Assembly (NCBI RefSeq): GCF_000219215.1
Contig: NC_015727.1
Span: forward strand, 558,001 to 622,000
DNA: 64,000 nucleotides
Direction: 5' to 3'
Source: Cupriavidus necator N-1
Lineage (GTDB): Bacteria; Pseudomonadota; Gammaproteobacteria; Burkholderiales; Burkholderiaceae
Shown here: piece after piece, positions 30,859-59,836 of the stretch
Position numbering within the stretch: position 1 is the first letter of the stretch
Layout: the number at the start of each line of letters is the position of its first letter
Made by a program: the position numbers and the translations under genes
The notes under the pieces: generated by a model
What the model saw: only the letters and a program-made list of their open reading frames with translations
What the model was told of the DNA's origin: nothing
The model's database searches: none

Positions 30859-30894
30859 GTTCCGAATATCAGACCACGTTCCGGCTATCGGAAC
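30859..30894. promoter_or_regulatory. Operator pair A: two 17-bp palindromes, 19-bp pitch
   Basis: Site A1 is GTTCCGAATATCAGACC (30859-30875) and A2 is GTTCCGGCTATCGGAAC (30878-30894); A2 is palindromic in its outer six bases on each side. The pattern resembles IclR-family operators such as those of PcaU/PobR. It lies between the divergent MFS_3 and LysR genes. Confidence 0.6.
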
Positions 30895-30983
30895 CAGAGG
30901 TCGTGAAACAGGGGACCCGCCGCAGGGCGGCAGCGCGTGAAGGACTTCTACGCCGGAGAGGTCGCCAATGTGACCTGTACATC

Positions 30984-31895
30984 ATGGAGAATGTGCGCGG
31001 TATCAATACCTTTATCCGGATTGTGCAGACCGGCAACTTCAGCCGTGCTGCCCGAGAACTGGGCATCACGCCACAAGCGGCCAGCATTCACGTCAAGCTG
31101 ATCGAGGACTGGGTCGGTGTCCGGCTTCTCAATCGCAGTACTCGGAAGATCAGCCTTACCGAAGAAGGCGCCAGCTTCTACCGTACCTGCGTTGGGGCGT
31201 TTCGCTCGATCGACGATGAGATCGAGCGGATGCGTGACGCCTCGGAGGAAGCCTTCGGCACCGTCAAGCTTGCCGCGCCGGTCGGCATGGCTTCGCGCTT
31301 CATCGCTCCGGCACTGGGACGCTTCCTCGAGAACTACCCGCGCGTTTCCGTCGACCTCATTGTTCAGAACAGGATTCCCGACGTCGTCGCCGAAGGCATC
31401 GACGTCGGCGTCCTTCCCCACCCCCTGCCGGACACGACGTTGATCGCGCGACGCGTGGTGACATCGCCATTCGTCCTTTGTGCTTCCCCCGCCTACCTGC
31501 AACGCCACGGCAGGCCGATGACCATCGAGGAGTTGGCGCGCCATCGCCGGCTCGATATCCGGAGCTGGGTGACGAACGCGGTGCGGCCATGGCGGCTGCG
31601 ATCCGGACACGAGGTCGTAACCGGCCAGGGACGAGCGTGCCTGGTGACCAATGACGGCGACAGTCTCATCGAGGCGATGCTCAGTGGCGCCGGAATCGGG
31701 CTCCTCACGCGCTACCGCGTGAGCCCTTACCTCCGCTCCGGACGCCTTGAGACAGTGTTGGATGGGCAGGTCGACGGCGAACTGAGCTACTCGATCTACA
31801 TGCAGCAACGTAACCAGATACCAAGAAAGATCCGCGTCATGGCGGACTTTCTGTATCACGTCCTCAGCTTGCATCCCGATTTTCGCCAGGAGTGA
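30984..31895 (+). CDS. LysR-family transcriptional regulator
   Basis: A 303-residue regulator starting MENVRGINTFIRIVQTGNFSRAARELGITPQ; the helix-turn-helix continues to LLNRSTRKISLTEEG and a substrate-binding domain follows. The frame stays open for a further kilobase upstream, but that part is antisense to the MFS gene and not protein-like. No clear ribosome site is visible before the ATG. It diverges from the MFS exporter and lies upstream of an FAD-dependent dehydrogenase on its own strand, either of which could be its target. Confidence 0.9.
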   Translation: MENVRGINTFIRIVQTGNFSRAARELGITPQAASIHVKLIEDWVGVRLLNRSTRKISLTEEGASFYRTCVGAFRSIDDEIERMRDASEEAFGTVKLAAPVGMASRFIAPALGRFLENYPRVSVDLIVQNRIPDVVAEGIDVGVLPHPLPDTTLIARRVVTSPFVLCASPAYLQRHGRPMTIEELARHRRLDIRSWVTNAVRPWRLRSGHEVVTGQGRACLVTNDGDSLIEAMLSGAGIGLLTRYRVSPYLRSGRLETVLDGQVDGELSYSIYMQQRNQIPRKIRVMADFLYHVLSLHPDFRQE

Positions 31896-32176
31896 GGTGA
31901 CTGGCAATGCGGCCCGATTCGCACGCGCCGCGTCGGCGTGGCAGCGCTTTGCCGATTTCCCGGGCGTCACCGCAAGCCGGAGGCGTGCGGGCTGCCGCTC
32001 CTGAAGCCCGCCCTGCGAAGATCCTGCCTTCATTATCAATTGGCAGTTGAAGGTGCTTAAAACCGGCTCGTGGTTTCGCCGCGAGCACGACCCTAGAATG
32101 GCTTCGTCATTCGCTGCTCCATAACGAAAGGTCAGCCAGCGCAGGCTTCTTAACGGCAAGAAAAGCGGGGGGTTCC

Positions 32177-33598
32177 ATGAAATCGATCGATACCGATGTC
32201 GTCATCGTCGGCGCAGGGATCGCGGGTCTGACAACGGCCGTGCGTTTGTCGGAACAAGGCATCAAAACGCTGGTGCTGGAGAGCGGGGAGTCGGGGAAAT
32301 ACCTGTGCAACACGCGCTTGGCTGGCGGCGCGTTCCACGTCGCGCACCAGGACGTGGCAGACGATTCACAGGTGATCCTGCGTGCCATCACCAGGCGCAC
32401 CGGTGACTCCGCAAGCACCGAACTGGTGGAGGCGCTGGCAAACGACATTGGCGAAGCGACCCGATGGCTGAAGCGGCAGGGCGTTCGGTTTATCAGGGTG
32501 GGGTATGAGTCGTACCGCAAGCATACCCTGGCACCGCCGATCGCGACGCGGGGCCGCGAGTATTGGGTAGGCCGCGGTGGTGATGTGCTGTTGCGCACCC
32601 TGGCCAGCGGCCTGCAGAAACACGGCGGCAAAATCCTGCACGGCGCTCGCGCCACCGGCCTGACCATGCGTGACAGCGCCTGTGTCGGCTTGCACGCGGA
32701 GTTCACGTCGGGACCGGTCGATATCGAGGCAAGGGCTGTCGTGATCTGCGACGGCGGATTCCATTCGAACATGGATCTGCTGCGCGAGTTCATCAGCCCC
32801 GCGCCGGAGAAGCTCAAACAGCGGAACGCGCAGACTGGCCATGGCGATGGGCTACGGATGGCTCGCGAAGCGGGCGCGCAACTGGTGGGGCTCAACCGGT
32901 TCTACGGCCATGTGCTGGCGCAGGACGCCATGCACAACGATGACCTGTCGCCATTCCCGATGATGGATTTCGTGTGCGCAGCGGGAATTGTCGTCGACTT
33001 GTCCGGCCGGCGGTTCGTGAACGAGGGCCTGGGCGGCGTGACCATGGCCAACACGATCGCGGCGCAGGCGGATCCGCTGGGCGCAACGGTAATTTTCGAT
33101 GCGGATATCTGGAACGGGCCCGGGCGCGAGTATCTGATTTCCGCCAACCCGACATTGGTGTCGAGCGGAGGCACCCTTTTCTCCGCCACCGACCTCGGCA
33201 GTCTGGCAAGCCAGGTCGGCGTGCCCGCTGAAGTCCTGCAGCAGACGGTGGCGCAGTACAACGCGGCCGTAGACAGCGGCTTGGCCGGCAACCTGGCACC
33301 AACGCGCACCACCGATGGCTATCAGGCCTGGCCAATCCGCAAGGCGCCGTTCTACGCGGTGAAGCTCTGCGCCGGCATCACCTACACCATGGGCGGGATC
33401 GCCATTGACGTTGACGGGCGAGTGCTAGACACAGCCAACCGGCCGATTGCGAACCTGTACGCGGCTGGCTGCGCGACGGGTGGCATCGAAGGCGGTGGTG
33501 ATCGAGAGCAAGTCGCGTACATCGGCGGGCTCAGCCGGTCCACGGTCTTTGGCTTGCGCGCAGCGAATGCGATTGCGTCGACGTTGATCCCGGCGTGA
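32177..33598 (+). CDS. FAD-dependent dehydrogenase of the fumarate reductase / TcuA-like family
   Basis: A 473-residue flavoprotein. The N-terminus DTDVVIVGAGIAGLTTAVRL binds FAD, GGAFHVAHQD follows, and the C-terminus has ITYTMGGIAIDVDGRVLD and NLYAAGCATGGIEGG, typical of the FAD_binding_2 family. It lacks a signal peptide. It is the second of three paralogous flavoproteins in the window (others at 392 and 53836). It is followed by a small membrane protein and a Bug-type binding protein, which suggests a carboxylic acid substrate; the exact reaction is unknown. Confidence 0.85.
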   Translation: MKSIDTDVVIVGAGIAGLTTAVRLSEQGIKTLVLESGESGKYLCNTRLAGGAFHVAHQDVADDSQVILRAITRRTGDSASTELVEALANDIGEATRWLKRQGVRFIRVGYESYRKHTLAPPIATRGREYWVGRGGDVLLRTLASGLQKHGGKILHGARATGLTMRDSACVGLHAEFTSGPVDIEARAVVICDGGFHSNMDLLREFISPAPEKLKQRNAQTGHGDGLRMAREAGAQLVGLNRFYGHVLAQDAMHNDDLSPFPMMDFVCAAGIVVDLSGRRFVNEGLGGVTMANTIAAQADPLGATVIFDADIWNGPGREYLISANPTLVSSGGTLFSATDLGSLASQVGVPAEVLQQTVAQYNAAVDSGLAGNLAPTRTTDGYQAWPIRKAPFYAVKLCAGITYTMGGIAIDVDGRVLDTANRPIANLYAAGCATGGIEGGGDREQVAYIGGLSRSTVFGLRAANAIASTLIPA

Positions 33599-41101: not shown

Positions 41102-41130
41102 TTGGCACGCATCCTGGCAGGTGCTAACAT
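41102..41130 (+). promoter_or_regulatory. Putative promoter of the CapA-like gene
   Basis: TTGGCA and TAACAT are 17 bases apart, and TG precedes the -10 box (TGCTAACAT). The expected start point at about 41137 falls within operator pair B, so binding there would block transcription. Confidence 0.6.
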
Positions 41131-41132
41131 CT

Positions 41133-41168
41133 GTTCTTACAAGTGGCACCGATTCCGATAATCGGAAC
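41133..41168. promoter_or_regulatory. Operator pair B: two 17-bp palindromes, 19-bp pitch
   Basis: Site B1 is GTTCTTACAAGTGGCAC (41133-41149). B2 is ATTCCGATAATCGGAAC (41152-41168), nearly a perfect inverted repeat and very like known IclR-family operators. The pair begins two bases after a -10 box. Confidence 0.65.
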
Positions 41169-41195: not shown

Positions 41196-42311
41196 ATGTC
41201 TGGCAGTGTGACGGTGTTGATCGGCGGTGACTGTGGTCCTGCGCATGGGGCGCGGGATGGTTTTGCGATTGAGGGCTACACGGAGTTGGTGCGCCCCGTG
41301 CTCGAGCAGGCGGACATGCGGTTCGTGAACTGCATGCGGACTTATTCGAACCGAGGTATCAAGGCGGACCACGCACCACAGGTAGCGCAGCCGGTCGAGA
41401 TGGCGGAGATCTACACCAACGGCATGTTTGACGCCGTCACCATGTCGAACAACCACACCTATGACGCCGGGCCTGACGCCATGCTGGATACCCGCGATTT
41501 GCTGAATTCGCGGGGCATTCAGGTGACAGGTGCGGGTCGGAACCTCAAGGAAGCCCGCCGTGCCGCAATCGTGGAAAAGAACGGCGTGAAGGTGGCCTAC
41601 CTTGGCTATACGTCGGTCGCCGCGGCCGGCAGCGAAGCCAGGCCCGACAAGCCCGGCGTCACGTCGATCCGGATCAGGACGTCCTACGAAACCCGCGGTC
41701 CGCACCAACCAGTTGGCATCCGGACGGAGCCCGATCCCGAGGATCTGGCCATGCTTCTGGAAGACATCCGGGAGCTGCGCAAGGAAGCGGACATTGTCAT
41801 CCTGGCTTTTCACTCCGGCGTCATTCGCCTGCCACGCGTGATCGCGGACTACCAGGTAGCCGTTTCGCACGCCGCCATCGATGCAGGCGCCGACCTGGTC
41901 GTCGCGCATGCGCCGCACATTCCGAAGGCGGTGGAAGTCTACAAAGGCAAGACGATTTTCTACAGCCTGGGCGTTTTTGCCATGACGAAGGGCTTCCCGG
42001 CACCGTCCTGGTCAGAGCCGGCATGGGCACATGGTGCGGTCCGGAATCATACCGATCTCGATCCCGATTACCCGCTCATGCCATATGGCAAGGCGTGTAC
42101 CCTGAGCCTGTTAGCGAAAGCAGTGGTGTCAAAGGAAGGGGTGCTGCGCGTCGGATTCCTGCCCATGGCGATGGACCAGCGGTACCGGCCGGAAGTTTTG
42201 CGCCGCGGACATCCGAAGTTCGACGAGGTCGTCAATTACCTGGAATGGGCGTCCGTGGATATGCCGCATACCTTCCATGTTGAAGGGGACGAGGTAATCG
42301 TCACCGCCTGA
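41196..42311 (+). CDS. CapA-family (PGA_cap) metallophosphoesterase-like protein
   Basis: A 371-residue protein of the CapA/PGA synthesis family. It has VTVLIGGDCGPAHGARDGF at the N-terminus, MSNNHTYDAGPDAMLDTRDLL, GAGRNLKEARRAAIVEKNGVKVAYLGYTS, VILAFHSGV, and VVAHAPHIPKAVEVYKGKTIFYSLG near the end. Asp and His residues typical of the calcineurin-like fold are present. There is no signal peptide or membrane anchor, unlike capsule CapA, so a cytoplasmic hydrolase role in catabolism is more likely than capsule synthesis. The start is fixed by GTGAGGAGATAGGT. A strong terminator follows. Confidence 0.85.
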   Translation: MSGSVTVLIGGDCGPAHGARDGFAIEGYTELVRPVLEQADMRFVNCMRTYSNRGIKADHAPQVAQPVEMAEIYTNGMFDAVTMSNNHTYDAGPDAMLDTRDLLNSRGIQVTGAGRNLKEARRAAIVEKNGVKVAYLGYTSVAAAGSEARPDKPGVTSIRIRTSYETRGPHQPVGIRTEPDPEDLAMLLEDIRELRKEADIVILAFHSGVIRLPRVIADYQVAVSHAAIDAGADLVVAHAPHIPKAVEVYKGKTIFYSLGVFAMTKGFPAPSWSEPAWAHGAVRNHTDLDPDYPLMPYGKACTLSLLAKAVVSKEGVLRVGFLPMAMDQRYRPEVLRRGHPKFDEVVNYLEWASVDMPHTFHVEGDEVIVTA

Positions 42312-42547: not shown

Positions 42548-43312
42548 CTATTGCCAAGCCGCGCGGTCTTCGCGCGGATATTGAAGCACCATTGCCTCCA
42601 GGCCTTTCGCGCCAGCACGGATCTCGAACTTTTCCTCGTTCGGCTCCACGACCACCATGGACCACTGCGGCAGTTCTTCGTCGCCATGAACTAGGCTGCC
42701 GTTTCCGACGAAGATGTAGTAGCCGCCAGCGGCACGGGGATCAGGACCCTGTACGGTCATGCCTTCACCGAGCCGGACGACTTGTGCGGCCATGCCATCC
42801 GATTCGTCTGCGAACAGCGTCTCCCATGCCACTTCCGTGCGGGCTTTGAGAACCGGCTCGGTGGAAAAGCGCACCGGCTCTGAAGTCAGGTGCCTGCGTT
42901 TGCTTTGTTCCAGCTTCTCGCGGTACCCCGGCTTGTCGAGATAGATCGGCTCGGAATTCCCGGTGTACATGCGCATCGCCACGAACGACAGGCCTTGCGG
43001 GCCGGAAACGATCGGGCCGTACGCGGTGTGGTGATCCTTGAACTGGACCGTCAGCGGCTGCAACACCTGGCCACGGTTGCCGATGGTACCCGACCCGGCG
43101 ACGAAGAGTTGAAACATCGTCACACCGTGGAAGTGCGGGACGATGGTTTCGTTGGCGTCCAGTTCCGACATCGTGGCCTGCGGGCCCGGCTGCCGCTCGT
43201 TGGAAGAGCGCGGGCCAAAGTACACGGTTCCCCAATGCTTGTTGCCAGTCCCCGGGGAAACCACAACATTTCGCTTCGCAATGGCGTCGGCGCCACTTCG
43301 CGTGTAAATCAT
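42548..43312 (-). CDS. Cupin-fold protein
   Basis: A 254-residue protein with two cupin-like halves: TIVPHFHGVTMFQLFVAGSG with HFH-type metal ligands in the first, and GGYYIFVGNGSLVHGDEELPQWSMVVVEPNEE in the second. The ATG at 43312 was chosen because AAAGGAG lies seven bases upstream; another ATG two codons earlier is too close to it. It is divergent from the acyl-CoA synthetase gene with an array of palindromes between. Possible roles are a dioxygenase or isomerase acting on the pathway substrate. Confidence 0.82.
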   Translation of the reverse strand: MIYTRSGADAIAKRNVVVSPGTGNKHWGTVYFGPRSSNERQPGPQATMSELDANETIVPHFHGVTMFQLFVAGSGTIGNRGQVLQPLTVQFKDHHTAYGPIVSGPQGLSFVAMRMYTGNSEPIYLDKPGYREKLEQSKRRHLTSEPVRFSTEPVLKARTEVAWETLFADESDGMAAQVVRLGEGMTVQGPDPRAAGGYYIFVGNGSLVHGDEELPQWSMVVVEPNEEKFEIRAGAKGLEAMVLQYPREDRAAWQ

Positions 43313-43402
43313 CGTCATTCTCCTTTGCGTCTGCCGCAAATCGCGGAAGGGCTCCGCGCTCGTTTGCGGGTTGCTCAGCGCCTTCTGGCAACCCATGTCA
43401 CC

Positions 43403-43411
43403 ATCGTAGCA
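43403..43411 (-). promoter_or_regulatory. Extended -10 box for the cupin gene
   Basis: On the minus strand the bases read TGCTACGAT, fitting TG-N-TANNAT. The hexamer ends exactly six bases from the nearest palindrome (43415-43431), the same distance as at the FadJ-like gene promoter (59837-59842). Confidence 0.45.
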
Positions 43412-43414
43412 GAA

Positions 43415-43507
43415 GTTTTGATCAATAGCATCAGTTTCGAACAACGGAACCATTACGGAAGCGTTGTTGTGGTTTCGTTCATCAGAACCGATTCCAAAAA
43501 TGTTGAC
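43415..43507. promoter_or_regulatory. Operator array C: up to five 17-bp sites on a 19-bp pitch
   Basis: Sites: GTTTTGATCAATAGCAT (43415), GTTTCGAACAACGGAAC (43434), a degenerate one at 43453, GTTTCGTTCATCAGAAC (43472) and a half-matching ATTCCAAAAATGTTGAC (43491). All start points differ by multiples of 19. The array lies between the divergent cupin and acyl-CoA synthetase genes and touches promoters on both sides. Confidence 0.65.
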
Positions 43508-43531
43508 TGGCGCGGCAGCTCAGACTAAAGT
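43503..43531 (+). promoter_or_regulatory. Putative sigma70 promoter of the acyl-CoA synthetase operon
   Basis: TTGACT and TAAAGT are 17 bases apart. The -35 box overlaps the last site of operator array C. The start codon lies 120 bases downstream. Confidence 0.5.
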
Positions 43532-43650
43532 CAGGACTATCGGAGCCGGCCCAGCGCCTGGCCCGCAGGGGGCTGCTCGTCGCAGACGTTGTCGCGCACC
43601 AGGTGCGCAGTTTTGTCCCGATGTCGGTCGGGAATGGATCAACTCTAGGT

Positions 43651-46856: not shown

Positions 46857-46885
46857 CAAAAGTAGAAAGACAGGGGAGACCTCTA

Positions 46886-47635: not shown

Positions 47636-47652
47636 AAATCAGGAGGAGAAAA

Positions 47653-48438
47653 ATGGCAGATCTGGAAACTGAAACGATTGGACGGGTGGTGGTCGCGCGC
47701 CTGAATCGTCCCGAAAAGAAGAACGCGCTGAGTGAGGAAATGCTCGAGCTGCTAGGCACGGCGCTGAAGAAGGCGAATGACGATCCGGCCATCGGCAGCT
47801 TTGTCATCACCGGGAGCGGGGACGCATTCTGTTCGGGCGGCGATCTCGGGCGACGTGGCTCGGAAGCCGAACCGACACCACTGGAACGCAAGCAGCGGCT
47901 CCAGAACGTCACACATCGGGTCGCGCTCGCGGTGGAAGAATTCGAAAAACCGCTGATCGCCGCCGTAAACGGTGCGGCCGTTGGGGCAGGAATGGACCTT
48001 TCGCTGATGTGCGACCTGCGCTTTGCAGCGAGCACCGCGAGATTTGCAGAGGCATACATCCGTGTCGGCCTTCTGCCAGGCAACGGCGGTTGCTATTTCC
48101 TGCCGCGTCTCGTGGGACCAGCCAAGGCCTTGGAGCTACTTTGGACTGGCGACTTCGTCCCGGCAGACGAAGCGCTGCGGATCGGGCTGGTCAATCGGGT
48201 TTGCAGCGCGGATGACTTGATGCAAGAGACGATTGCTTTCGCTGCTCGCCTGGCCGATGGCCCGCCGATCCAGACACGCGATATCAAGAAGCTGATGTAT
48301 CAATCGCTTCGCACTGACCTGCGCACGAGTCTTGAAACGGTTGCATCGCATATGGCTGTGGTGCAGTCGACCCGTGACTACAAGGAAGCAATCCTGGCTT
48401 ACAAGGAGAAGCGCAAGCCCGTATTCGAGGGTCGCTAA
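47653..48438 (+). CDS. Enoyl-CoA hydratase/isomerase family protein
   Basis: A 261-residue crotonase-fold enzyme. It has GDAFCSGGDLGRRG and NGAAVGAGMDLSLMCDLRFA oxyanion-hole segments, and FAEAYIRVGLLPGNGGCYFLPRLVG, where the catalytic region has PGNGG instead of a Glu pair. It may therefore be an isomerase, ring hydrolase or thioesterase-like crotonase rather than a plain hydratase. AGGAGGAG precedes the ATG. It is the last gene of the operon begun by the acyl-CoA synthetase. Confidence 0.9.
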   Translation: MADLETETIGRVVVARLNRPEKKNALSEEMLELLGTALKKANDDPAIGSFVITGSGDAFCSGGDLGRRGSEAEPTPLERKQRLQNVTHRVALAVEEFEKPLIAAVNGAAVGAGMDLSLMCDLRFAASTARFAEAYIRVGLLPGNGGCYFLPRLVGPAKALELLWTGDFVPADEALRIGLVNRVCSADDLMQETIAFAARLADGPPIQTRDIKKLMYQSLRTDLRTSLETVASHMAVVQSTRDYKEAILAYKEKRKPVFEGR

Positions 48439-48609: not shown

Positions 48610-49362
48610 ATGGAACACCTCCAAATGATGCGCTCGGTGCAACGTATTCTTGCTGTATTCGAAAGCTTCACCGCCGAACGGAGCAGCCTGACGCTACAAG
48701 AGATTGCTGACCGCATCGAGCTGCCGAAGTCTACGACGTTCCGCATTGTCCAGAGCCTGGACCAGGCCGGCTATCTGGTTCGCCTGGAAGACCAGCAATA
48801 CTGCCTCTCGTTCCGCTTCACGCGACTGGCCGGCCTGGTCAAGAGTACGCTCGGCATCCGCGAGATCGCCCGCCCGATCCTGGTCGAGCTGGCGGAGAAA
48901 ACCAAGGAGACAATCTCGCTCCATACGGTCAGTGGCCAGAATCGCATCTGCATCGACGCGGTGTCGACAGACGCATCGCCGCTGCGTGCCGTGGTCCAGG
49001 CGGGCGAGCAGATTCCGCTGCTCATGGGCTCGGGTTCCAAGGTGCTGATGGCGTATATGCCCAAGGACGAGGCGGCGCCTCTCGTCACCGCGGTCGCCAA
49101 GGCGACCAAGCGAACCAAGGCCGATGTGCTCGCGGAGTTCGAGAAAGTGCGCGAGCAGGGCTATTCGGTCTCGCACGGGGAGCGCCTGCTAGGCATCTCG
49201 GCGATATCGGCTCCCATCAAGGACGTGCACGAGGAAGTGCACTATTGCATTTCACTTGGTGCGCCGACGGTGCGTTTGCAGACGCGGGAAAAGGAACTCG
49301 TCAAGCAAGTGGTCAGCGCCGCCGCCAATATTTCGCTGCAGTTCGGCGGCAAGCTGGACTAG
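48610..49362 (+). CDS. IclR-family transcriptional regulator
   Basis: A 250-residue regulator. The N-terminal winged helix includes SVQRILAVFESFTAERSSLTLQEIADRIELPKSTTFRIVQSL-type sequence (about 6-50), and the C-terminal IclR ligand domain has IRRIARP-like REIARPILVELAEKT, LMGSGSKVLMAYMP and LGISAISAPIKD. The start is uncertain between a TTG at 48598 and ATGs at 48610 and 48625. It sits between the synthetase/crotonase operon and the convergent thiolase operon. Both regions, and three others nearby, carry IclR-like 17-bp palindromes, so this protein is the most likely regulator of the whole 30-62 kb part. Confidence 0.92.
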   Translation: MEHLQMMRSVQRILAVFESFTAERSSLTLQEIADRIELPKSTTFRIVQSLDQAGYLVRLEDQQYCLSFRFTRLAGLVKSTLGIREIARPILVELAEKTKETISLHTVSGQNRICIDAVSTDASPLRAVVQAGEQIPLLMGSGSKVLMAYMPKDEAAPLVTAVAKATKRTKADVLAEFEKVREQGYSVSHGERLLGISAISAPIKDVHEEVHYCISLGAPTVRLQTREKELVKQVVSAAANISLQFGGKLD

Positions 49363-49433: not shown

Positions 49434-50210
49434 TCAGAGCAGTGACCCCACCATCCCGCCTTCCACCGGAATCGTCGCGCCGTTGACAAATCCTGCCTGC
49501 ATCGAAGCCAGGAACGTTACCACGCCGGTTGTCTCCTGCTGGGTACCGAGTCGACCCAGCGGCGTCAGTTTCTTGCGGGCGGCCGTTTGTTCCGCAGAAT
49601 AGGCGGCACCGCCGCTGCGGTGTGAAGTGTCGATCAACGCGGGCGCAACACAGTTCACCGTGATGCCACTTGCACCGACCTCATTCGCCAGGTGCTTCAT
49701 ATAAGCCGTAACGCCGGCCCGAAACACCGTTGACAGGCTGTGATGCGGCATCGGCTGCTTGACTGATGCCGAGGTGATGGCAATGACCCGGCCCCAGTTG
49801 CGGTCGAGCATCAGCGGAATGACGTGGGTAACCACCTGGATGGTGCCCCACAACTGGTTCTGGTACGCCTCTTTCCAGCGCTCCTCGTCGGTTTCTTCGA
49901 GTGTGGCGCGGATCGGGTTGGGGGGGCGTGACGTATTCAGGACGACAATGTCGGGTCCACCGTCGTTCTGCCGGAGCGAGGAAGCCAGGCGTTCCACGTC
50001 GGCGCGAACCAGCATATTGCCTGGGACCGCAACGGCCTTCACGCCGTGCTGCTGTTCGATCTCATCCGCAACGGCTTGCAGCTTGTCAGCGGAGCGGGCG
50101 AACAGCACCACATTGACGCCCTCTGCAGCCAAGGCGTGCGCAATGTTCCTGCCCATGCCGCCGCTGGAGGCGGTGATCAGCGCAGTCTTTCCTTTGATTC
50201 CGAGATCCAT
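49434..50210 (-). CDS. SDR-family oxidoreductase
   Basis: A 258-residue short-chain dehydrogenase with KTALITASSGGMGRNIAHALA (TGxxxGxG variant ASSGGMG), FARSADKL after the second strand, and HSLSTVFRAGV at the active-site region. There the usual Tyr of Y-x-x-x-K is not obvious (HHSLS..FRAGVTAYMKHLA), so catalysis may be altered. The C-terminus is ATIPVEGGMVGSLL. It is the last gene of the minus-strand unit with the lactonase, DUF35 and thiolase genes. Proteins of this subtype often act on ring ketones. Confidence 0.86.
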   Translation of the reverse strand: MDLGIKGKTALITASSGGMGRNIAHALAAEGVNVVLFARSADKLQAVADEIEQQHGVKAVAVPGNMLVRADVERLASSLRQNDGGPDIVVLNTSRPPNPIRATLEETDEERWKEAYQNQLWGTIQVVTHVIPLMLDRNWGRVIAITSASVKQPMPHHSLSTVFRAGVTAYMKHLANEVGASGITVNCVAPALIDTSHRSGGAAYSAEQTAARKKLTPLGRLGTQQETTGVVTFLASMQAGFVNGATIPVEGGMVGSLL

Positions 50211-50265
50211 GTTTTTTGCTCACTAAGGTGGGGCGGATAAACATTCGTCGGCAATTTGCCGGCCA

Positions 50266-51435
50266 CTAGTCAAGGCCAACCATACCCATCCAGTACTGGA
50301 GTTGGCTGCCTGAGGTCTCTACATCGTACTTTCGGCAGAACTCCAGACAGCCATCGGCCTGGATGCGAAAGACCGAGAGCGCCGCCGGCACGTGCCGGAT
50401 ACGGTCGCCATCGCGCTCGTGCAGGGCCTTGATGCTTGCCGTAACCAGCAGGCGGCCATCCGGATCGCAGGCAAAGGTGCGGATGTGGAAGGTTTGTGTG
50501 TTGACGTGCTGGAGAAGTTTCGGTTCGCCCGTTTCCGGGTCGATCCCATAAACCGCGATATTGTTTTCGCCGCCTGCGAATACCTTGTGCTCGCCGTCGG
50601 CGACGGTGTGGTCGGCCCGATTGGCAACGTAGACACAATGACCGGCCGGATGGACATGAATCGGTCCGCCGATTTGTCGCGGGCGCACCAGTTCCGGCTG
50701 GCGCAGCGTTGGACAGGCGAAGGCAGGCGCCGCTTCAATGCCGCGTTCGCTGTAGCGGAACATATAAAGCCGGTTGGTGCGTTCGTCCGATGCGTAGAGC
50801 CAGGGTTTTGACGGATGGAACGCGATGTGGCGCGGGCCGAATCCATATCCCCCCTGCGGGGCCACCACGCCGCCCGCCGAGAGTTGACCATCCTCGAAGC
50901 CGAAGGTCCGCAACGCCCCCGGCTCTTCCGGCTTGTCGCCCTGCGCCTTGTTGCCGCGATCGACGATCACTGCGGTGCGGCCCGACGGCGTGACCATGAC
51001 CTGATGCGGATAAATACCGTAGTCCAGGGCGGTGGCCTGCACGACGCGATCGCCGATTTCGCCATTGGCCTCTACGCGATGCACTGTGACCCCGCTCGAC
51101 GGATAGTTGTGGCCATTCAGGACATAGCGCCCCGAGGGATCCACGCACATATGTACGGCGCGACGCGGCAATGGCTTGCTTTCCCCATGGGGAAGCAATG
51201 CGCCATCCGCACCGATGGCGAAGGCGCTGACGTGGTTGTAGTCCGATTCGACCCGCGGGCCGCCGTTGCTGGTGGAAACATACAAGCACGGTTTGGCAGG
51301 ATGCCGCCAGGCATATTGCACCTTGGCGGGAACCCGGACGGTTTCCTTCCTGACAAGCGTAGCGGAATCGACGTCCACCGCGTAATGGGTGAGCATGTCG
51401 TCAACGGCGCTATATAAAGCGATGGATCTTGCCAT
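50266..51435 (-). CDS. Lactonase family protein (seven-bladed beta-propeller)
   Basis: A 389-residue cytoplasmic protein of the 6-phosphogluconolactonase (YbhE/Pgl) or muconate-cycloisomerase-like propeller family. Repeated blades are visible, such as HMCVDPSGRYVLNGHN, HQVMVTPSGRTAVIVDRG, RHIAFHPSKPWLYASDE and IHVHPAGHCVYVANR. It has no signal peptide. In a pathway with thiolase and SDR genes it may open a lactone intermediate. It lies 24 bases after the DUF35 gene. Confidence 0.85.
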   Translation of the reverse strand: MARSIALYSAVDDMLTHYAVDVDSATLVRKETVRVPAKVQYAWRHPAKPCLYVSTSNGGPRVESDYNHVSAFAIGADGALLPHGESKPLPRRAVHMCVDPSGRYVLNGHNYPSSGVTVHRVEANGEIGDRVVQATALDYGIYPHQVMVTPSGRTAVIVDRGNKAQGDKPEEPGALRTFGFEDGQLSAGGVVAPQGGYGFGPRHIAFHPSKPWLYASDERTNRLYMFRYSERGIEAAPAFACPTLRQPELVRPRQIGGPIHVHPAGHCVYVANRADHTVADGEHKVFAGGENNIAVYGIDPETGEPKLLQHVNTQTFHIRTFACDPDGRLLVTASIKALHERDGDRIRHVPAALSVFRIQADGCLEFCRKYDVETSGSQLQYWMGMVGLD

Positions 51436-51459
51436 CGGATTCTCCGGTGGGTATTCGGA

Positions 51460-51876
51460 TCAGGGCGTATTGTCGGCAACTGGCGTGAACATCGGAATCG
51501 ATGTGCCACCTTCCGACGTCTTGAAGACCACCCTGACGCGCTGGCCGATCCGGACCGTGTCCAAATCCGTGTCCACGATATTCGTCAGGATGGTGGGGCC
51601 CTCATCCAAAGTCACGTATGCGATGCAGTATGGCGTGCCGGCGCCGCGGCGCGTGACACTGTAGGTGTAGATCACGGCGGTCCCTTGGCTGTCGGCCCAT
51701 CGCACATCGCTGCTCCAGCAAAAAGGACACAAGGCACGCGGATAGTGATGCGATTGCTCGCAGTCGCGGCAAACCTTGAGCAGCAGCTTTCCTTGGGCAG
51801 CGGCGGCGAAATAGGGCTCGTCACCCGGATTCAGGGCGGGGTCGCTGATCTTGCGGGCTTCGGAAAACGTCGGCAT
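51460..51876 (-). CDS. DUF35 zinc-ribbon/OB-fold protein (thiolase partner)
   Basis: A 138-residue protein starting MPTFSEARKISDPALNPGDEPYF. Its rubredoxin-like zinc ribbon has CRDC and CPFC pairs, and a C-terminal OB fold includes YTYSVTRRGAGTPYCIAYVTLDEGP. DUF35 proteins form complexes with SCP-x-like thiolases or related synthases and may help in substrate delivery; steroid side-chain thiolases are known examples. The thiolase gene ends five bases upstream of this start. The start at 51876 is chosen because the longer frame overlaps the thiolase. Confidence 0.9.
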   Translation of the reverse strand: MPTFSEARKISDPALNPGDEPYFAAAAQGKLLLKVCRDCEQSHHYPRALCPFCWSSDVRWADSQGTAVIYTYSVTRRGAGTPYCIAYVTLDEGPTILTNIVDTDLDTVRIGQRVRVVFKTSEGGTSIPMFTPVADNTP

Positions 51877-51881
51877 GTCAT

Positions 51882-53051
51882 TTACTCCCTTTCCATGATG
51901 AGCGTGGCGGCGCCGTGGCGGTGGCCAATGGCTCCGCCGATGCCGGTGGCCAGGGCAAGTGTGCAATCTGGCACTTGCACGCTCGGGTGGGCTTCGCCGC
52001 GCAGCTGGCGCACCGCTTCGATGATCTTTGTGATGCCGCCGCGATTTGCCGGATGGTTATTGCACAGGCCGCCACCGTCGGTATTGAACGGAAGCTTGCC
52101 CACGCCGGAGATCAGGTTGCCATCAGCAACGAATCGGCCGCCTTCGCCTTTCTTGCAGAAGCCGAGGTCTTCCAGCTGCAGGATCACGGTGATGGTGAAG
52201 CTGTCGTAGATCGACGCATACTGAATATCGGCAGGGGTAACGCCCGCTTCTTCGAATGCCCGCGGGCCTGTCCATGCCGCGCCGGTGTAAGTGAGGTCGA
52301 CCTTGCCGGCCATCTGATGCTTAGTCGATTCGCCTGCGCCCAGCAGCTTGATGCGCGGGCGTGCCAGGGCCCTGGCAATCTCCGGGCGCGCCACGATCAC
52401 TGCGCCACCACCGTCGCTTACGACGCATGAATCCAGACGATGCAGCGGATCCGCGATCATCGGCGAGGCCAATACGTCGTCCACCGAGACGACGTTGCGC
52501 AGCATTGCGTTTTCGTTGTATTGCGCATGGTGCGAAGCGGCAACTTTTACCCAGGCCAGCTGGTCGCTGGTCGTGCCGAACTCATGCATATGCCGCATGG
52601 CGCACATGGCGTACAGGTTCAGCGTGACCGGGCTGTAGGGCATTTCATAGGGCGCCTCAGGCATATTGACGCCGCGGACGCGGACCTGGGTGCCGGAGAT
52701 GCCCTCCGAATTTGGCCGTCCGGCCAGAGTGATGAGTGCCACGTTGCACTTTCCCGCCGCAATTGCCTCGGCCGCGTGGGCCACGTGCGCCAAGTACGAG
52801 CATCCGCCCATATCCGTGGAATCGACATGCCGGAGCCGGTTCAGGTTGAGGTAGTTCGCCATCGACCAGACATTGGCTCCCGGTGCGTCGCCGGCGCAAA
52901 AGAAGCCGTCGATGTCGTCCCGCGACAGACCCGCGTCTTCGATCGCACCTTTGGCGACTTCCGCATGGAGCTGCGCCACGGAGTGCTCCGGCGCTTTGCG
53001 CAGGGGGTGTTCATACGCCCCGATGATGTAGGCCTTGCCTTTGATTGTCAT
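51882..53051 (-). CDS. Thiolase-like protein (SCP-x / lipid-transfer type)
   Basis: A 389-residue thiolase-fold protein of the non-decarboxylating lipid-transfer group. The presumed nucleophile Cys is in MGGCSYLAHVAHAAEAIAAG (about residue 84), and the C-terminal active-site segment reads GGGLCNNHPANRGGI, replacing the classical GHP-x-G of degradative thiolases. With its DUF35 partner it likely cleaves a branched or ring-derived 3-ketoacyl-CoA. It heads the minus-strand operon down to 49434. Operator pair D and an extended -10 box lie just upstream. Confidence 0.9.
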   Translation of the reverse strand: MTIKGKAYIIGAYEHPLRKAPEHSVAQLHAEVAKGAIEDAGLSRDDIDGFFCAGDAPGANVWSMANYLNLNRLRHVDSTDMGGCSYLAHVAHAAEAIAAGKCNVALITLAGRPNSEGISGTQVRVRGVNMPEAPYEMPYSPVTLNLYAMCAMRHMHEFGTTSDQLAWVKVAASHHAQYNENAMLRNVVSVDDVLASPMIADPLHRLDSCVVSDGGGAVIVARPEIARALARPRIKLLGAGESTKHQMAGKVDLTYTGAAWTGPRAFEEAGVTPADIQYASIYDSFTITVILQLEDLGFCKKGEGGRFVADGNLISGVGKLPFNTDGGGLCNNHPANRGGITKIIEAVRQLRGEAHPSVQVPDCTLALATGIGGAIGHRHGAATLIMERE

Positions 53052-53093: not shown

Positions 53094-53129
53094 GTTTCAT
53101 ACACTGGAATCGATGCTAATGATCAGAAC
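53094..53129. promoter_or_regulatory. Operator pair D: two 17-bp sites, 19-bp pitch
   Basis: D1 is GTTTCATACACTGGAAT (53094-53110) and D2 is ATGCTAATGATCAGAAC (53113-53129). The reverse complement of D2, GTTCTGATCATTAGCAT, nearly equals site C1 at 43415. D2 ends two bases from the -10 box of the thiolase operon, on its downstream side. Confidence 0.6.
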
Positions 53130-53131
53130 CC

Positions 53132-53140
53132 ATGATACCA
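53132..53140 (-). promoter_or_regulatory. Extended -10 box of the thiolase operon
   Basis: On the minus strand this reads TGGTATCAT, identical to the box at 30849-30857. The predicted start point lies inside operator pair D, which fits repression. Confidence 0.5.
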
Positions 53141-53287
53141 TCGTGTCCAAGGTTGTGGGGAACCTGAAAAACATCGGGACAGGGCCGGCATGGCTCGTTT
53201 TAGTGATTCAAGAGGGGGGGGCTGTCCGCAGGCAGGTCCCCCAGCGCCGAGCCCGCAAGGGGCAGGTATGACGAAAGGAGTAGGACC

Positions 53288-53512
53288 ATGGAGAACCAGC
53301 TATGCGCGAGCGGTGACCACTCGGGTGCGAGTGCCGTCCTTGCCGAATTCAAGGTTTGGCAGTGCGTACTGTGCGGCTTCGTGTACGACGAAGCGATGGG
53401 AATGCCGGAGGAGGGCATTGCGCCGGGTACGCGCTGGGCTGACATTCCGGACGACTGGATGTGTCCGGAGTGCTCGGTGGGCAAGAGCGACTTCGAGATG
53501 GTCGAGGTGTAG
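53288..53512 (+). CDS. Rubredoxin with N-terminal extension
   Basis: A 74-residue electron carrier. After about 20 extra residues it has [12 protein letters not shown] and later [12 protein letters not shown], the two C-x-x-C knuckles that hold one iron. AAAGGAG precedes the ATG. The length and sequence closely match the rubredoxin at 62061, so the two are recent paralogues. It may accept electrons from the reductase encoded at 45804, or from the FAD/Fe-S dehydrogenases nearby. A small conserved-looking gene follows. Confidence 0.93.
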
Positions 53513-53789: not shown

Positions 53790-53835
53790 CAGTCAGATCC
53801 TGGCGGCCGCGCGCGGCGCCATGATGGAGAATTGG

Positions 53836-55245
53836 ATGATCGATGTACTAGTGATAGGAGGCGGCAATGCCGCGCTCTGCGCCGCGCTGATGGCGCGCGA
53901 AGCCGGGGTTTCGGTACTGCTGCTGGAGTCGGCGCCACGCGCGTGGCGCGGTGGCAACTCGCAACACACCCGCAACCTGCGATGCATGCATGATGCGCCG
54001 CAGGACGTGTTGGTCGACGCCTATCCGGAAGAAGAGTACTGGCAGGACCTGCTCAAGGTGACGGGCGGCATCACGGACGAACACCTGGCGCGGCTGGCGA
54101 TCCGCGCGTCATCGACGTGCCGGCCGTGGATGCGCAGGCACGGCGTGCGTTTCCAGCCGCCACTTTCGGGCGCGCTGCACGTGGCCCGCACCAACGCCTT
54201 CTTCATGGGCGGCGGCAAGGCGCTGGTCAACGCGTATTACCGCAGCGCCGAAGCGATGGGCGTGCAGATCCGTTATGACACCCCGGTCGACAGCATTGAG
54301 CTGGATGGGGACCGCTTCGTCGCCGCACGCAGCGGCGACATGCGCTTTACCGCGCGCACCTGCGTGCTGGCCGCGGGCGGCTTTGAGTCCAACCGCGAAT
54401 GGCTGCGCGAAGCCTGGGGCCAGAACGAACGCGGCGAATGGCCCGCCGACAACTTCCTGATCCGCGGTACGCGCTTCAACCAGGGCGTGCTGCTGCAGCA
54501 CATGATCGAATCCGGCGCTGACGCCATCGGCGACCCATCGCAATCGCACTGCGTCGCCATCGACGCGCGCGCGCCGCTGTACGACGGCGGCATCTGCACG
54601 CGCATCGATTGCGTGTCGCTGGGCGTGGTGGTCAACCGCGACGCCGAACGTTTCTACGACGAAGGCGAGGACTTCTGGCCCAAGCGCTATGCGATCTGGG
54701 GCCGGCTGGTGGCGCAGCAGCCCGGGCAGATCGGCTATTCGATCATCGACAGCCAAGCCATCGGCCGCTTCATGCCGCCGGTGTTTCCTGGCGAGAAGGC
54801 GGACACGCTACCTGAGCTCGCGCGCAAGCTTGGGCTGCCAGAGGCGCAGTTCGTGCGCACGGTGCAGGACTACAACGCGGCGTGCCGCGTCGGCACCTTC
54901 GACCATACCGCGCTGGACGACTGCCACACCGAAGGCCTGGCACCGGCCAAGACGCATTGGGCCAGGCCGCTCGACCGGGCGCCGTTCTACGGCTACGCGC
55001 TGCGGCCGGGCATCACCTTCACTTACCTGGGGCTCAAGGTCAACGATCGTGCCCAGGTGCACTTCGGCGGAAAGCCGAGTGGGAATCTGTTCGTGGCGGG
55101 AGAAATGATGGCGGGCAACGTGCTCGGAAAGGGATATACGGCCGGGGTCGGCATGTCGATCGGCACGGCTTTTGGGCGCATCGCCGGCACGCAGGCTGCA
55201 TTGGCGGCAGGCATCAACACGGGAGCCGTCCATGCAGAAGCTTGA
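53836..55245 (+). CDS. tcuA: FAD-dependent tricarballylate dehydrogenase TcuA
   Basis: A 469-residue flavoprotein. [24 protein letters not shown] at the start is the TcuA-type FAD site; [21 protein letters not shown] and the C-terminal [24 protein letters not shown] follow. TcuA oxidises tricarballylate to cis-aconitate and passes electrons to TcuB. The ATG at 53836 has GGAG six bases upstream; one at 53821 adds five residues. The tcuB gene overlaps the 3' end by 14 bases. No tcuC transporter or tcuR regulator lies next to it, unlike in Salmonella. Confidence 0.92.
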
Positions 55246-56437
55246 AGCCCTGGCGCGGGAAGCCGCGCAACTGGCCGGGAACGAAGAAGGCGCGATCGCC
55301 ACGCCCGGCACTGGACGCGTGATCCGCGTGCTGCCGCTGACCGACAATGAAGCCGAAGTCGCGCGGCAGATGCAGATCTGCAATGCGTGCCGTTACTGCG
55401 AAGGCTTCTGCGCGGTGTTCCCGGCGATGACGCGCCGGCTTGAGTTCGGCAAGGCCGATGTCAATTACCTGGCGAACTTGTGCCATAACTGCGGGGCGTG
55501 CTATCACGCATGCCAGTATGCGCCGCCGCATGACTTCGGCGTCAACGTGCCGCAGGCGATGGCGAAGGTGCGGCTGGAGACGTATAGCGAATATGCGTGG
55601 CCGGCGCCGCTGGGCAAGCTGTACAAGCGCAACGGCCTGACGGTGTCGGTCGCGCTGGCGATCGGGTTGGCGTTGTTCCTGGTGCTGGCCGTGACGGTGG
55701 GCGGCGCACTGTGGCGCACGCATGCGGGCGGGAATTTCTATGGGGTCTTCCCCCACAATACGCTGGCAGGCATGTTCGGCGCGGTGTTCGGCTTTGCGGT
55801 GATCGCGCTGGGCATCGGAGTGCGCCGCTTCTGGCGGGACGTGTCGGCCGGCACGGCCTCCGCGCCTGCCGTGGCCGAGGCGGCGAAGAACGTGCTGGCG
55901 TTGACCTACCTGGATGGCGGGCATGGCGATGGCTGCAATGAGGCGAGCGATCGCTTTACGCTGGCGCGGCGGCGCTTCCACCATTTCACGTTCTATGGCT
56001 TCATGCTGTGCTTTGCTTCGACGACGGTGGCGACGGCTTACCACTATCTATTGGGATGGCATGCGCCGTATCCGGTATTCAGCCTGCCGGTGCTGTTGGG
56101 AACCGCGGGTGGGATTGGGCTGTTGATCGGCCCGGCCGGATTGCTGTGGCTGAACCTGCGGCGTCATCCGATGCATGGCGATGTGAAACAGCGGCCGATG
56201 GATCGGGGCTTCATTGCGTTGCTGTTGTTGACCAGCGGGACCGGACTGGCCTTGCTGGCGGGACGTGAGACGGCGGCGATGCCTTTGCTTCTGGCAGTAC
56301 ACCTCGGTGTCGTGATGGCCTTGTTTGCGACCCTGCCGTATGGCAAGTTTGCGCACGGCATCTTGCGCACCGCAGCGCTGTTGAAGTCCAACATTGAGAA
56401 ACGTAGGCCCAGCGAACTGCGCCTCGGCGACGACTGA
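55232..56437 (+). CDS. tcuB: Tricarballylate utilisation 4Fe-4S membrane protein TcuB
   Basis: A 401-residue protein. The N-terminal part carries [19 protein letters not shown] and [22 protein letters not shown], two 4Fe-4S cluster motifs. From about residue 140 there are six hydrophobic segments, with histidines (for example [13 protein letters not shown]) that could hold haem. TcuB re-oxidises the FADH2 of TcuA and feeds electrons to the quinone pool. The start lies within the end of tcuA, showing translational coupling. Confidence 0.92.
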
Positions 56438-56624
56438 TCGGGGGCCTTCTTCGCCTGCCAACAGCGGGCGTAGAGGGTCGAGCTGGATCAGCGAGATTCA
56501 ATCTGCTGGCGCAGCCCCAGGCGTAAAGCTTCGGTGCGCCAGCTTTTTTTGCTGCCCGGCAACGTCTCCACGGCCCATCGGTTCCGGTGGCGGCTCGCTG
56601 GCTTCGGAAGGGGAGACTGACTGC

Positions 56625-58247
56625 GTGAATTGCTACGACTACATCATCGTTGGCGCCGGCTCGGCAGGATGCGTGCTGGCCCGTCGACTGAGCGAGGATC
56701 CCGGCACGCGTGTGCTGCTGGTGGAGGCGGGCCCGCCCGCTGACGATTTCTGGATCCGCACGCCCGCCGGCATGGGCAAGCTGTTCAAGTCCGAGCGCTA
56801 CAACTGGTGTTTTCAGACGGAGCCGGTGCCGAGCTTGCGCAATCGCCGGATCTATTGGCCGCGCGGCAAGACGCTTGGTGGCAGCAGTGCCATCAACGGC
56901 ATGGTGTATGTGCGCGGCAACCGGCGCGACTTCGATCATTGGCGGGATCTTGGCAACCCAGGTTGGGGCTGGGACGACGTGTTGCCGTACTTCAGGCGCT
57001 CGGTGTGCGATGCCGCTGACACCGAACCCGCCAGCGGGCCGCACGGACTGCTGACCGTGAGCGATCCGTCGGTCCTGCACCCTGCGGCGCTGGCGTTCCT
57101 GGCGTCGGCGCAACAGACTGGCCTGGCACGCCTGGATGACTTCAACGAAGGCGATCAGGAGGGCGTAGGGCTGCTGCGCGCCACGATTCGCAACGGCGTG
57201 CGGCAGTCCACCTATGACGCATTCCTGGCCCCCGTTGCCGGGCGCCGGCCGAATCTCGAGATCCGTACTGGTGCGCATGTACGCCGCGTGCTCTTCAGTG
57301 GCCTGGCTGCTACGGGAATCGAGGTCTTGCTGGAGGGACGGACCCAGCGGTTCGAAGCCGCGCGCGAGGTCATACTGTGCGCGGGTGCACTGAGTTCGCC
57401 GCATCTGCTGATGCTGTCCGGCATCGGCGACGGCCAGCAGCTGCGGCAATACGGCATCGCGACCGTTGCGCACGTGCCGGGCGTCGGCAAAAACCTGCAG
57501 GACCATTTCGCGGTGCGCGTGCAGGCGCAGACCACGCCTGGCGGCTCCTACAACCAGCATCTCGGCGGATGGCGAAAGTACGCTGAGGGCGCGCGCTATC
57601 TGATCACCAAGGGTGGCTACCTTGCACTCGGCTCATCGATTGCAGCCGCCTTCGTGCGCAGCGGGCCAGATGTCGAGTATGCGGACATGGAACTCAGTTT
57701 CCGGCCCATGACATTCTCCTACGATGGGTCCAGTAAAGCGGTAGTCGACAGTTTCCCCGCCATCAGCGCGTCCGTTTATCGCGTGCGCCCGGCCTCGCGC
57801 GGTGAGGTGGCACTGCGTAGCAGCGATCCCATGCAGTCGCCTGCCTTTGTGCCGAACTACCTGCAGGATCCTGAAGATGTCCGCGCGATGCTGGCGGGGT
57901 TGCGGCGCTTGCGCGAAATACTTGCCATGGAGCCGCTCTCTGCGCTGATCGTCCGCGAACTTGTGCCGGGCGACCCGGTACGCACCGACGCGCAATGGAT
58001 CGACTATATGGAGCGCGAAGGCCAGTGCGCGTTCCATCCCGCGGGCACATGCAAGATGGGCAAGGACAGCATGGCAGTGGTTGACGCACGCCTGCGTGTG
58101 CGTGGCGTCGAGCGCTTGCGCGTTGTCGATGCGTCGATCATGCCTGTCGTGACCTCCGGCAACACCAATGCGCCGACCATCATGATCGGAGAGAAGGGGG
58201 CCGACATGATCCTCGCCGATCGAACCGCGTCAAGCCGGACGGCGTAG
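56625..58247 (+). CDS. GMC-family FAD oxidoreductase (choline/alcohol dehydrogenase-like)
   Basis: A 540-residue flavoenzyme. It has [17 protein letters not shown] (FAD binding), [20 protein letters not shown] (GMC signature 1), [16 protein letters not shown] (signature 2), and the C-terminal active-site His segment [10 protein letters not shown] with [25 protein letters not shown]. It oxidises an alcohol to an aldehyde or ketone, with electrons to the respiratory chain. The GTG at 56625 was chosen because AGGGGAGACT lies upstream. The gap to tcuB (187 bases) holds no gene. Confidence 0.92.
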
Positions 58248-58328: not shown

Positions 58329-59420
58329 TCAGAACCTGTGACGCAAGCCGATGGCGGTACCGAACTGGTTGGCGCCCGCCTGCACCGTCCCAAAGCCGTA
58401 GCCGCCGCCGCCAAGGCCGAGGTTGGACCCGTTCCGGTTCTTCGTGTAGCCGACCGAGATATAGGCGTCGGTGCGCTTGGAGAAGGAGTAGTCGGCGTTC
58501 ACGGCAAACATCCAGGGATCCGCCTTCGTATCCGCAAAGTCCTGGTAGTAGACCGCGGCAGAGATCTGCAGCGGCTGCGTGACCTCCCAGCGCACGCCGG
58601 TCCACCAGAGATTGGAGCGTTGGTTGCCGGCCACCGGAGCCCCAGGCAGCAGCGCACCATCGTAAGCCTTGGCCCAGCGATAGCCCACGTACACCTTTGC
58701 CTTCTGGAAAGCATAGGTGCTGGCCACTGTCGCGCGACGTGCCGTGGCGTCCGGATTGACAGTGGTCGTGCCCGTGTTCAGCTCGTCATATGCGGCGGCA
58801 ATGGAAAAGGGGCCCGTGGTGTACGTGAAGTTGCCGCCAAACTCGCGACCGAGCTTGCTGTTGCCGGGGACCTCGCTGCCGTTTGCCGTCCCGCTTTCCG
58901 CGCCAAAGCTGTACATGGCACTCGCCTGCAAGCCCCCAAAATTGCCCACATACTTGACGGTGTTGTCCGCGCGTCCGACGAAAGCGCCGTCGTTGGCCAG
59001 CAACGAGTATCGGCCCATGATCCCCATGGGGTCGATATCGCCGGCGATGCCATAAAGCGCGTTGGTCTGGCGACCCAGCAGCAGCGAGCCCCACTGCCCC
59101 TGCAAGCCCACATAGGCGGAACGTCCGAACAGGCGCCCGCCTTGCGATGATCTGCCGGTATCGGACTCAAAGCCGCTTTCGAGGACGAACACGCCTTTCA
59201 GGTTGCTACCGAGATCTTCCACGCCGCGAATCCCCCAGCGCGATCCGGCCATGTTGCCTGGCGTCATGCGGAGGACGGAATGATCGCCCGGCGTCAGATG
59301 GTTGATGTACTCGAAGCCGGTATCGACCAACCCGTACAGCGTCACGCTGGATTGCGCCACGGCGGCCGTGGAACAGGCGCCAGCGATTGCTGCAAGCAGG
59401 ACGTTAGCTCTCAACTTCAT
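58329..59420 (-). CDS. Outer-membrane porin (Burkholderiales general porin family)
   Basis: A 363-residue porin. The signal peptide [22 protein letters not shown] is followed by [19 protein letters not shown], and the chain ends [10 protein letters not shown] with the C-terminal Phe required for barrel insertion. [23 protein letters not shown] and [20 protein letters not shown] are characteristic of the family. It probably admits the substrate of the surrounding catabolic region. The start is followed upstream by a 492-base gap that also holds palindromic sites. Confidence 0.92.
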
Positions 59421-59691
59421 GGGGTCTCCTCAATTTGGTTGTAGTGGTGAAGCAAGCAAGACTGCAGGGGACGATGAACGCAGCGCTCATCGCAATCCGG
59501 AACACCGATTGGTAGTGGGTTTGCCGGCCTGATGCGTCACCGGTGACTCGCAGCCGGGACTTGGCATCAAATGCGAAGGAGCCTTTTCGTAACAACGGAA
59601 GGCATCCTCGGCGCAGAACTGAGACTTTCAGATGGCAGGAACGCTGGCAACTCTAGCCGACAGGAATTCCCCAGTCAATAAAACGAAATCG

Positions 59692-59708
59692 GTTTTAGTG
59701 ATTGAAAC
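59692..59708. promoter_or_regulatory. Single 17-bp palindrome E
   Basis: GTTTTAGTGATTGAAAC has matching outer bases GTTT/AAAC and the 17-bp length of the other sites. The bases 19 positions upstream (59673) match only on one side. It could serve the porin gene. Confidence 0.45.
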
Positions 59709-59800
59709 CACTAGGGTTTTCGATACTAAGGGTGCGCGCGAAATCGCTCACGAGGCATGTATGAGTGCGCCCGATCACCTTCTTCCCCGACCTGCACCAA

Positions 59801-59836
59801 GTTCCATTGAGAGAAACCTATACCTTTGAATGAAAC
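59801..59836. promoter_or_regulatory. Operator pair F: two 17-bp sites, 19-bp pitch
   Basis: F1 is GTTCCATTGAGAGAAAC (59801-59817) and F2 is ATACCTTTGAATGAAAC (59820-59836). F2 ends exactly six bases before the -10 hexamer at 59843, covering the expected -35 region. Confidence 0.55.

Follow-up and report, generated by a model that had tools for sequence, protein, structure and literature searches.

Promoter-phased tandem palindromes as predicted operators of an IclR-family regulator in a catabolic gene cluster of Cupriavidus necator N-1

The window analysed here is a 64-kb stretch of Cupriavidus necator N-1 (bases 558001-622000 of contig C4, in a genome of 8.48 Mb), in which 17-bp palindromes repeated in tandem at a pitch of 19 bp stand in front of genes of a catabolic cluster. 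We read these tandem palindromes as predicted operators of the IclR-family protein encoded at position 48610, which would bind them as a tetramer, coupled to the promoters, and would probably be a ligand-dependent activator of the cluster; we put the probability of this reading at about 0.72. This gives a testable regulon, whose catabolic cluster occurs in scattered Burkholderiales and which has a named regulator and some seven predicted promoters.

All palindromes listed by the first-pass annotation of the window were found where it had placed them, and the gene map puts them in intergenic DNA in front of genes (Table 1); the open reading frames that overlap them (41121-42311, 42548-43453, 52440-53135 and 59775-60203) read as over-long or spurious frames. 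The 19-bp pitch holds in all five tandem groups, but the annotation had also counted the palindrome at 43472 into the phase of 43415/43434. These three do not form one phased array: 43434 and 43472 lie 38 bp apart in the closest two of the relatives covered (Cyeon and G058) and 46, 67-68 or 89 bp apart in others and, because this distance varies, we treat 43472 as a separate module. Likewise, what had been taken for a lone copy at 59692 is instead a palindrome with a half-site and a -35 element, facing the porin gene. The groups are directional.

Table 1. Predicted operator-promoter modules and genes of the cluster, in window coordinates (R2 E, E-value with the array profile held out from the genus)
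Feature	Position	Strand	R2 E	Elements and remarks
MFS_3 transporter	29195..30778	-		Predicted target
Type A module	30843..30894	-	0.00136	Sites 30878-30894 and 30859-30875; extended -10 ATGATACCAT at 30848-30857; points at the MFS_3 gene, also 86 nt ahead of the LysR gene
LysR-family regulator	30981..31895	+		Adjoins the first array
Type A-like array, CapA-like gene	41117..41168	-	7.0e-5	Strong site 41152-41168, weak site 41133-41149
CapA/PGA_cap-like protein	41196..42311	+		Predicted target
Cupin-like protein	42548..43318	-		Predicted target; named from sequence reading, start picked by inspection
Type A module	43399..43450	-	4.7e-6	Sites 43434-43450 and 43415-43431; extended -10 CTGCTACGAT at 43403-43412; faces the cupin-like gene
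Type B module	43472..43531	+		Palindrome 43472-43488; half-site ATTCC 43491-43495; TTGACT 43503-43508; TAAAGT 43526-43531; faces the ADP-forming CoA ligase operon
ADP-forming acyl-CoA ligase, ferredoxin-type reductase, two enoyl-CoA hydratases	43648..48438	+		Predicted target operon
IclR-family regulator	48610..49362	+		Proposed binder
SDR, lactonase-type beta-propeller, ChsH2-type OB protein, thiolase-like protein	49434..53051	-		Divergent from the 53094 array
Type A module	53094..53141	+	8.3e-12	Sites 53094-53110 and 53113-53129; extended -10 ATGATACCAT at 53132-53141; faces the rubredoxin-like gene and TcuA/TcuB, and on its other side immediately precedes the divergent thiolase operon
Small rubredoxin-like protein	53288..53512	+		Follows the 53094 module; name based on two CxxC motifs rather than on a family search
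TcuA, TcuB, GMC oxidoreductase	53821..58247	+		
Porin	58329..59420	-		Predicted target of a type B module
Type B module	59650..59708	-		Palindrome 59692-59708; half-site ATTTC; TTGACT 59673-59678; TAGAGT 59650-59655; faces the porin gene; read by eye
Type A module	59801..59848	+	0.0011	Sites 59801-59817 and 59820-59836; extended -10 GTGCTACTAT at 59839-59848; faces the FadB-like gene
FadB-like enoyl-CoA hydratase/3-hydroxyacyl-CoA dehydrogenase	59913..62021	+		Predicted target

Single palindromes occur at chance frequency: scanning the window with the consensus gave 129 matches with up to 3 mismatches against 124.5 expected, a count reached in 36 of 100 shuffles, and showed no enrichment of single sites. 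The 19-bp pairing withstood the shuffle control at the strict threshold: the 3523 bp of intergenic DNA contain three pairs, against an average of 0.0175 in shuffled versions, not one of 400 of which reached three. At the lax threshold the window alone discriminates poorly, because pitch 20 (three pairs) and many other pitches (one or two pairs) come near pitch 19 (five pairs). A two-site matrix trained outside the genus returned 10 strand-wise matches at spacing 19 in the 64-kb window, the top five being the five groups (scores 24.8-43.8); the remaining five either read one of these groups from its other strand or fall at 59673/59692. Scores above 24.8 are not confined to spacing 19, since the same matrix gives 36.1 and 27.2 at 38 bp (43434 to 43472) and 26.0 at 41 bp (59801).

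Relatives of the locus were fetched with the iclR gene at 48610, yielding 25 loci, of which 19 have at least 64% identity, and 8 further stretches; they were combined into 15 sequences including the window, which are not 15 organisms because two are separate contigs of Caballeronia catudaia. Pitch 19 accounts for 40 dyad pairs in these sequences, which are not independent events because the sequences are related; all other distances between 12 and 60, 48 in number, together have 206 pairs (mean 4.3), with a maximum of 12 pairs at 57, which is three times 19. A few of the 40 pairs sit inside genes. The conserved cluster comprises the cupin-like protein, the ADP-forming CoA ligase, the ferredoxin-type reductase, two enoyl-CoA hydratases, TcuA, TcuB and the SDR, together with the CapA-like protein, lactonase, OB protein, thiolase and FadB; the sequences vary, and some members are absent in some of them. 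The cupin-like protein of the window has no match in Pfam or NCBIfam, and no promoter was recognised for the operon at 49434..53051. Several relatives contain within the cluster a second IclR gene, with a product 65-67% identical, which may be the binder there or share the sites.

Two kinds of module link these operators to promoter elements. Type A consists of two palindromes followed, 2-3 nt on, by an extended -10 (TGnTAnnAT), with no recognisable -35; type B consists of a palindrome, a half-site RTTYC, TTGAC 13-16 nt beyond the palindrome and, after 17 nt, TAnAGT. The element TGnTAnnWT lies 2-3 nt past the array on one side in 28 of the 40 pairs, which had been picked by their dyads alone; it occurs nowhere else within 60 nt on either side of the 40 pairs, with a background of 1.5e-4 per position and strand. 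The best -35 match of the type A arrays has only 2-3 of 6 letters in 32 of 33 cases and 4 in the other, roughly what random sequence gives. TTGAC occurs 41 times in the 70 nt that follow 313 strand-wise dyads, 22 of them at 13-16 nt; the half-site RTTYC is present in 16 of these 22 places and absent from six, and TAnAGT follows a 17-nt spacer in 14 of the 16 places that bear it. With this extra half-site, type B may be a three-box IclR site. The link of the operators to the promoter is unusually rigid.

An iterated array matrix, used to score its own training sequences, gave 171 strand-wise matches at 88 places, namely 48 of type A, 10 of type B and 30 untyped, the last including places whose better-scoring strand is without the promoter element. 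In the window, the extended -10 of the 30843..30894 module stands one base nearer to site 2 than is usual among the arrays. For the CapA array, two readings are possible, one per strand: the type A reading places TGTTAGCAC on the minus strand, with no receiving gene seen nearby, and on the plus strand the same bases give the extended -10 TGCTAACAT (41122-41130) towards CapA, with the operator covering the likely start. The module in front of the porin gene is absent from the TTGAC tally because its palindrome has 3 mismatches, and it misses the 14-nt type B pattern (see below) because its TTGACT lies 13 nt from the palindrome.

Assuming a normally placed -10, the centres of the type A sites would fall near -46 and -27, and those of the type B sites near -59. 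We propose that IclR 48610 controls a cluster degrading an acid through CoA thioesters, and that a tetramer, as two dimers 19 bp apart, binds each tandem pair. At type A, the protein would cover roughly -54 to -19, where the -35 is missing, beside the extended -10; at type B, it would sit near -59, upstream of a good -35. It would probably be a ligand-dependent activator, and perhaps a repressor without its ligand, as is reported for PcaR.

A related possibility, which we consider rather unlikely, is that the same IclR protein is a pure repressor, the tandem pair blocking RNA polymerase at type A until a ligand releases it; it shares its binder with our main reading, so the odds of the two are not exclusive. 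Type A operators do overlap the -35 region and the spacer, the CapA array covers the probable start, and type B promoters have near-consensus -35 and -10 elements. However, the type A -35 is no better than random, a site near -59 is poorly placed for blocking, and across several genera the spacing to the promoter element varies by no more than 1-3 nt, a constraint that a blocker does not need. Because of this rigid spacing, we infer that activation is favoured over simple blocking, in particular at type A, where the spacing is fixed and the -35 missing. At type B, repression fits about as well, because the promoters are near-consensus and look strong alone, and at the CapA array repression is suggested because the operator covers the likely start. 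The 12 of 40 pairs without an extended -10 at the fixed place weigh against our main reading. More tentatively, and doubtful as it stands, one IclR protein might drive two rigid designs: a tandem operator in which a third 19-bp unit, fused to an extended -10, takes the place of the -35, and a three-box operator held at 13-16 nt from a full -35 that follows it. If so, a single binding mode would let IclR touch RNA polymerase in two different ways, and the promoter element itself would be a half-site.

Specificity was assessed with two array profiles: R1 includes the window's own arrays, and only R2, built from 22 arrays of Caballeronia, Paraburkholderia, Trinickia and one Alcaligenaceae genome, is held out from the genus. 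In a scan of the whole 8.48-Mb genome, in which 98 of 1162 first-look candidates were scored, R2 gives five matches at E 0.05, and these are the five groups; two of them, at 59801 and 30843, are modest (Table 1). For sets above 40 genomes, the profile searches used stricter filters and scored part of the first-look candidates. Among 60 genomes of the genus, R2 matches in all five carriers of an ortholog of the IclR protein and in one of 55 non-carriers (G022, weakly, at E 0.03). The ortholog is carried by 13 of 398 genomes of the family, and all 13 have a best R2 match at E 1.1e-9 or better; six of them supplied R2 training arrays (matched by contig coordinates) and seven did not. By comparison, 29 of the 385 family non-carriers have an R2 match at E 0.01, 27 of these being partial and 28 at 1.4e-4 or worse. 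The only one below 1e-5 is G220, whose strong match precedes a FadB homolog on a contig of 4.4 kb, which indicates that at least part of the cluster is present there. Operator and regulator are conserved together in relatives; since genomes with the gene also have the cluster, this co-occurrence is in part due to shared ancestry of the promoters. Allowing up to 2 mismatches, the 14-nt type B pattern matches once in the genome of the window, at the 43472 module, and in the genus in all five carriers and 2 of 55 non-carriers, its reversed control matching in 2 of 60 genomes; type B as a general module of many IclR proteins is thus unsupported in the genus.

Protein 48610 scores 55.1 bits with HTH_IclR (cut-off 22) and 108.1 bits with IclR_C (cut-off 24) in Pfam, which places it in the IclR family. 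Its best NCBIfam model is that of the PcaR/PcaU/PobR subfamily (TIGR02431), at 114.6 bits and hence below the cut-off of 284.75; it most likely works as a PcaU/PcaR-like regulator, without being classed as a member of the subfamily. Its gene starts 171 nt after the CoA ligase operon, and neither the consensus scan nor the array scan found a site in front of it. The first-pass annotation had proposed this protein as the regulator of most of the 30-62 kb part as one regulon. Array presence tracks its ortholog in the 60 and the 398 genomes, in support of the regulator; the region is not wholly covered, because the stretch from 31.9 to 41.0 kb has no array above the threshold, and approximately 9 kb (32.2-41.0 kb) may answer to the LysR gene at 30981.

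It is quite improbable that another regulator binds the arrays, be it this LysR protein or another IclR of the genome. The LysR gene adjoins one array, and the genome gives 45 IclR_C matches, some of which are two pieces of one gene. However, within the fetched stretches of 5-40 kb, a close homolog of the LysR protein (92-93%) turned up in just two Cupriavidus relatives, and none was seen beside the arrays of the remaining sequences, a distribution that disfavours LysR as the binder. Apart from itself, the best matches of protein 48610 in its genome are 29-36% identical, and no close paralog was found; the motif class, moreover, is that of IclR proteins. It is hardly credible that the pairs arose by chance or simply resemble promoters, with no regulator involved. 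Single dyads are indeed as frequent as expected, and pitch 19 barely stands out at the lax threshold in the window alone, but the strict-threshold shuffles, the pitch histogram, the profile search and the co-occurrence all speak against it.

Tandem IclR sites with centres 18-22 nt apart have been predicted in 94 of 181 ortholog groups, their pitch being attributed to tetramers; the same study assigns three-box sites to 32 groups (Suvorova and Gelfand 2021, PMC8222616). The arrays of the window resemble these tandem operators in palindrome class and in pitch, which is 19 in all five groups and in the 40 pairs of the 15 sequences. As the annotation had suggested, the palindrome is IclR-like, fitting the GTT-11-AAC subgroup of published motifs (GTTYCRYW3RYGRAAC; PMC8222616); site 1 fits this consensus and site 2 is more degenerate, with a left arm RTGCTG. 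The explanation of the 19-bp pitch by a dimer of dimers is supported in that it fits the tests made and in that roughly half of the IclR groups studied are predicted to have tandems of 18-22 nt. The annotation had described the regulon as not known, and we did not meet it in the literature on the cluster and on IclR, the ortholog-group listing of PMC8222616 aside; the tandem architecture itself is known, because that study predicts such a pitch in 94 of 181 groups. The case is thus a new regulon of a known kind. The sections of PMC8222616 covered here do not describe a fixed spacing to an extended -10 or -35 for IclR tandems. The tandem pitch is already in print, and it is the fixed operator-promoter spacing that would provide a natural set for how IclR-family activators touch RNA polymerase. 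For PcaU and PobR of Acinetobacter, the same source gives a palindrome plus an extra half-site (PMC8222616).

Protein 48610 can be compared with PcaU, PobR and PcaR in that their subfamily is its best NCBIfam match, below the cut-off, and in that PcaU and PobR combine a palindrome with a half-site; unlike in those systems, type A here has two whole palindromes, the arms are GTTYC, the site is longer and the pathway genes differ. PcaR of Pseudomonas reportedly both activates and represses, binding -35 and -10, in work of Guo and Houghton from 1999. Lu et al. reportedly described in 2010 the TtgV tetramer on its operator, a model for cooperative binding by a tetrameric IclR protein. TtgV is a repressor of efflux genes, and it is only a distant sequence match of protein 48610 (E 2.8e-12).

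The literature on the cluster and on the positioning of IclR activators held nothing decisive, and the passage on an IclR gene in an RB-TnSeq study concerns growth on glutarate in another strain (PMC12543098). Comparison of the thiolase with viral contigs gave one distant match, which was set aside.

Clusters of Paraburkholderia, Caballeronia and Trinickia (loci L019-L033) encode two IclR paralogs in the same cluster, the second of which is 65–67% identical to the IclR regulator of the window, and one IclR was found in the cluster in Cupriavidus. These paired paralogs offer a case for the study of regulator duplication and shared operators. In the related genome G058, the IclR ortholog (C6:473724-474469, loci L046/L047) appears as two overlapping pieces, and the matches to several neighbouring genes are shortened, which may reflect an assembly error or decay.

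No array precedes the genes of a stretch of about 9 kb (32177-41045), which comprises transport and enzyme genes, including three TctC receptors, Ldh_2, MmgE/PrpD and an SDR. These genes may be controlled by the product of the LysR gene at 30981. Using a GC3 filter, small proteins comparable to the rubredoxin-like one of the window were found after the array in four of nine relatives inspected (Cyeon, CUYM, G058 and Pphen), and none in the remaining five.

Additional features of the window and its flank
Feature	Position	Remarks
Small rubredoxin-like gene	53288-53512	Under the 100-aa ORF limit
Additional type B-like module	13902-13960	Palindrome, ATTCC, TTGACG, 17 nt, TACAGT
Weak sixth array	L078 ~1870-1916 = G000:C4:632370-632415	~10 kb beyond the window

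A sugar-type ABC transporter gene at 14038 is preceded by the type B-like module, possibly a site for a different IclR protein, such as the one encoded about 2 kb ahead of the window start (C4:556 kb). The sixth array matched profile R1, trained partly on the window's own arrays, only weakly (E 0.85); it consists of two palindromes at a pitch of 19 followed by ATGATAG, with a spacing a few nt longer. A LysR-type gene lies downstream of it.
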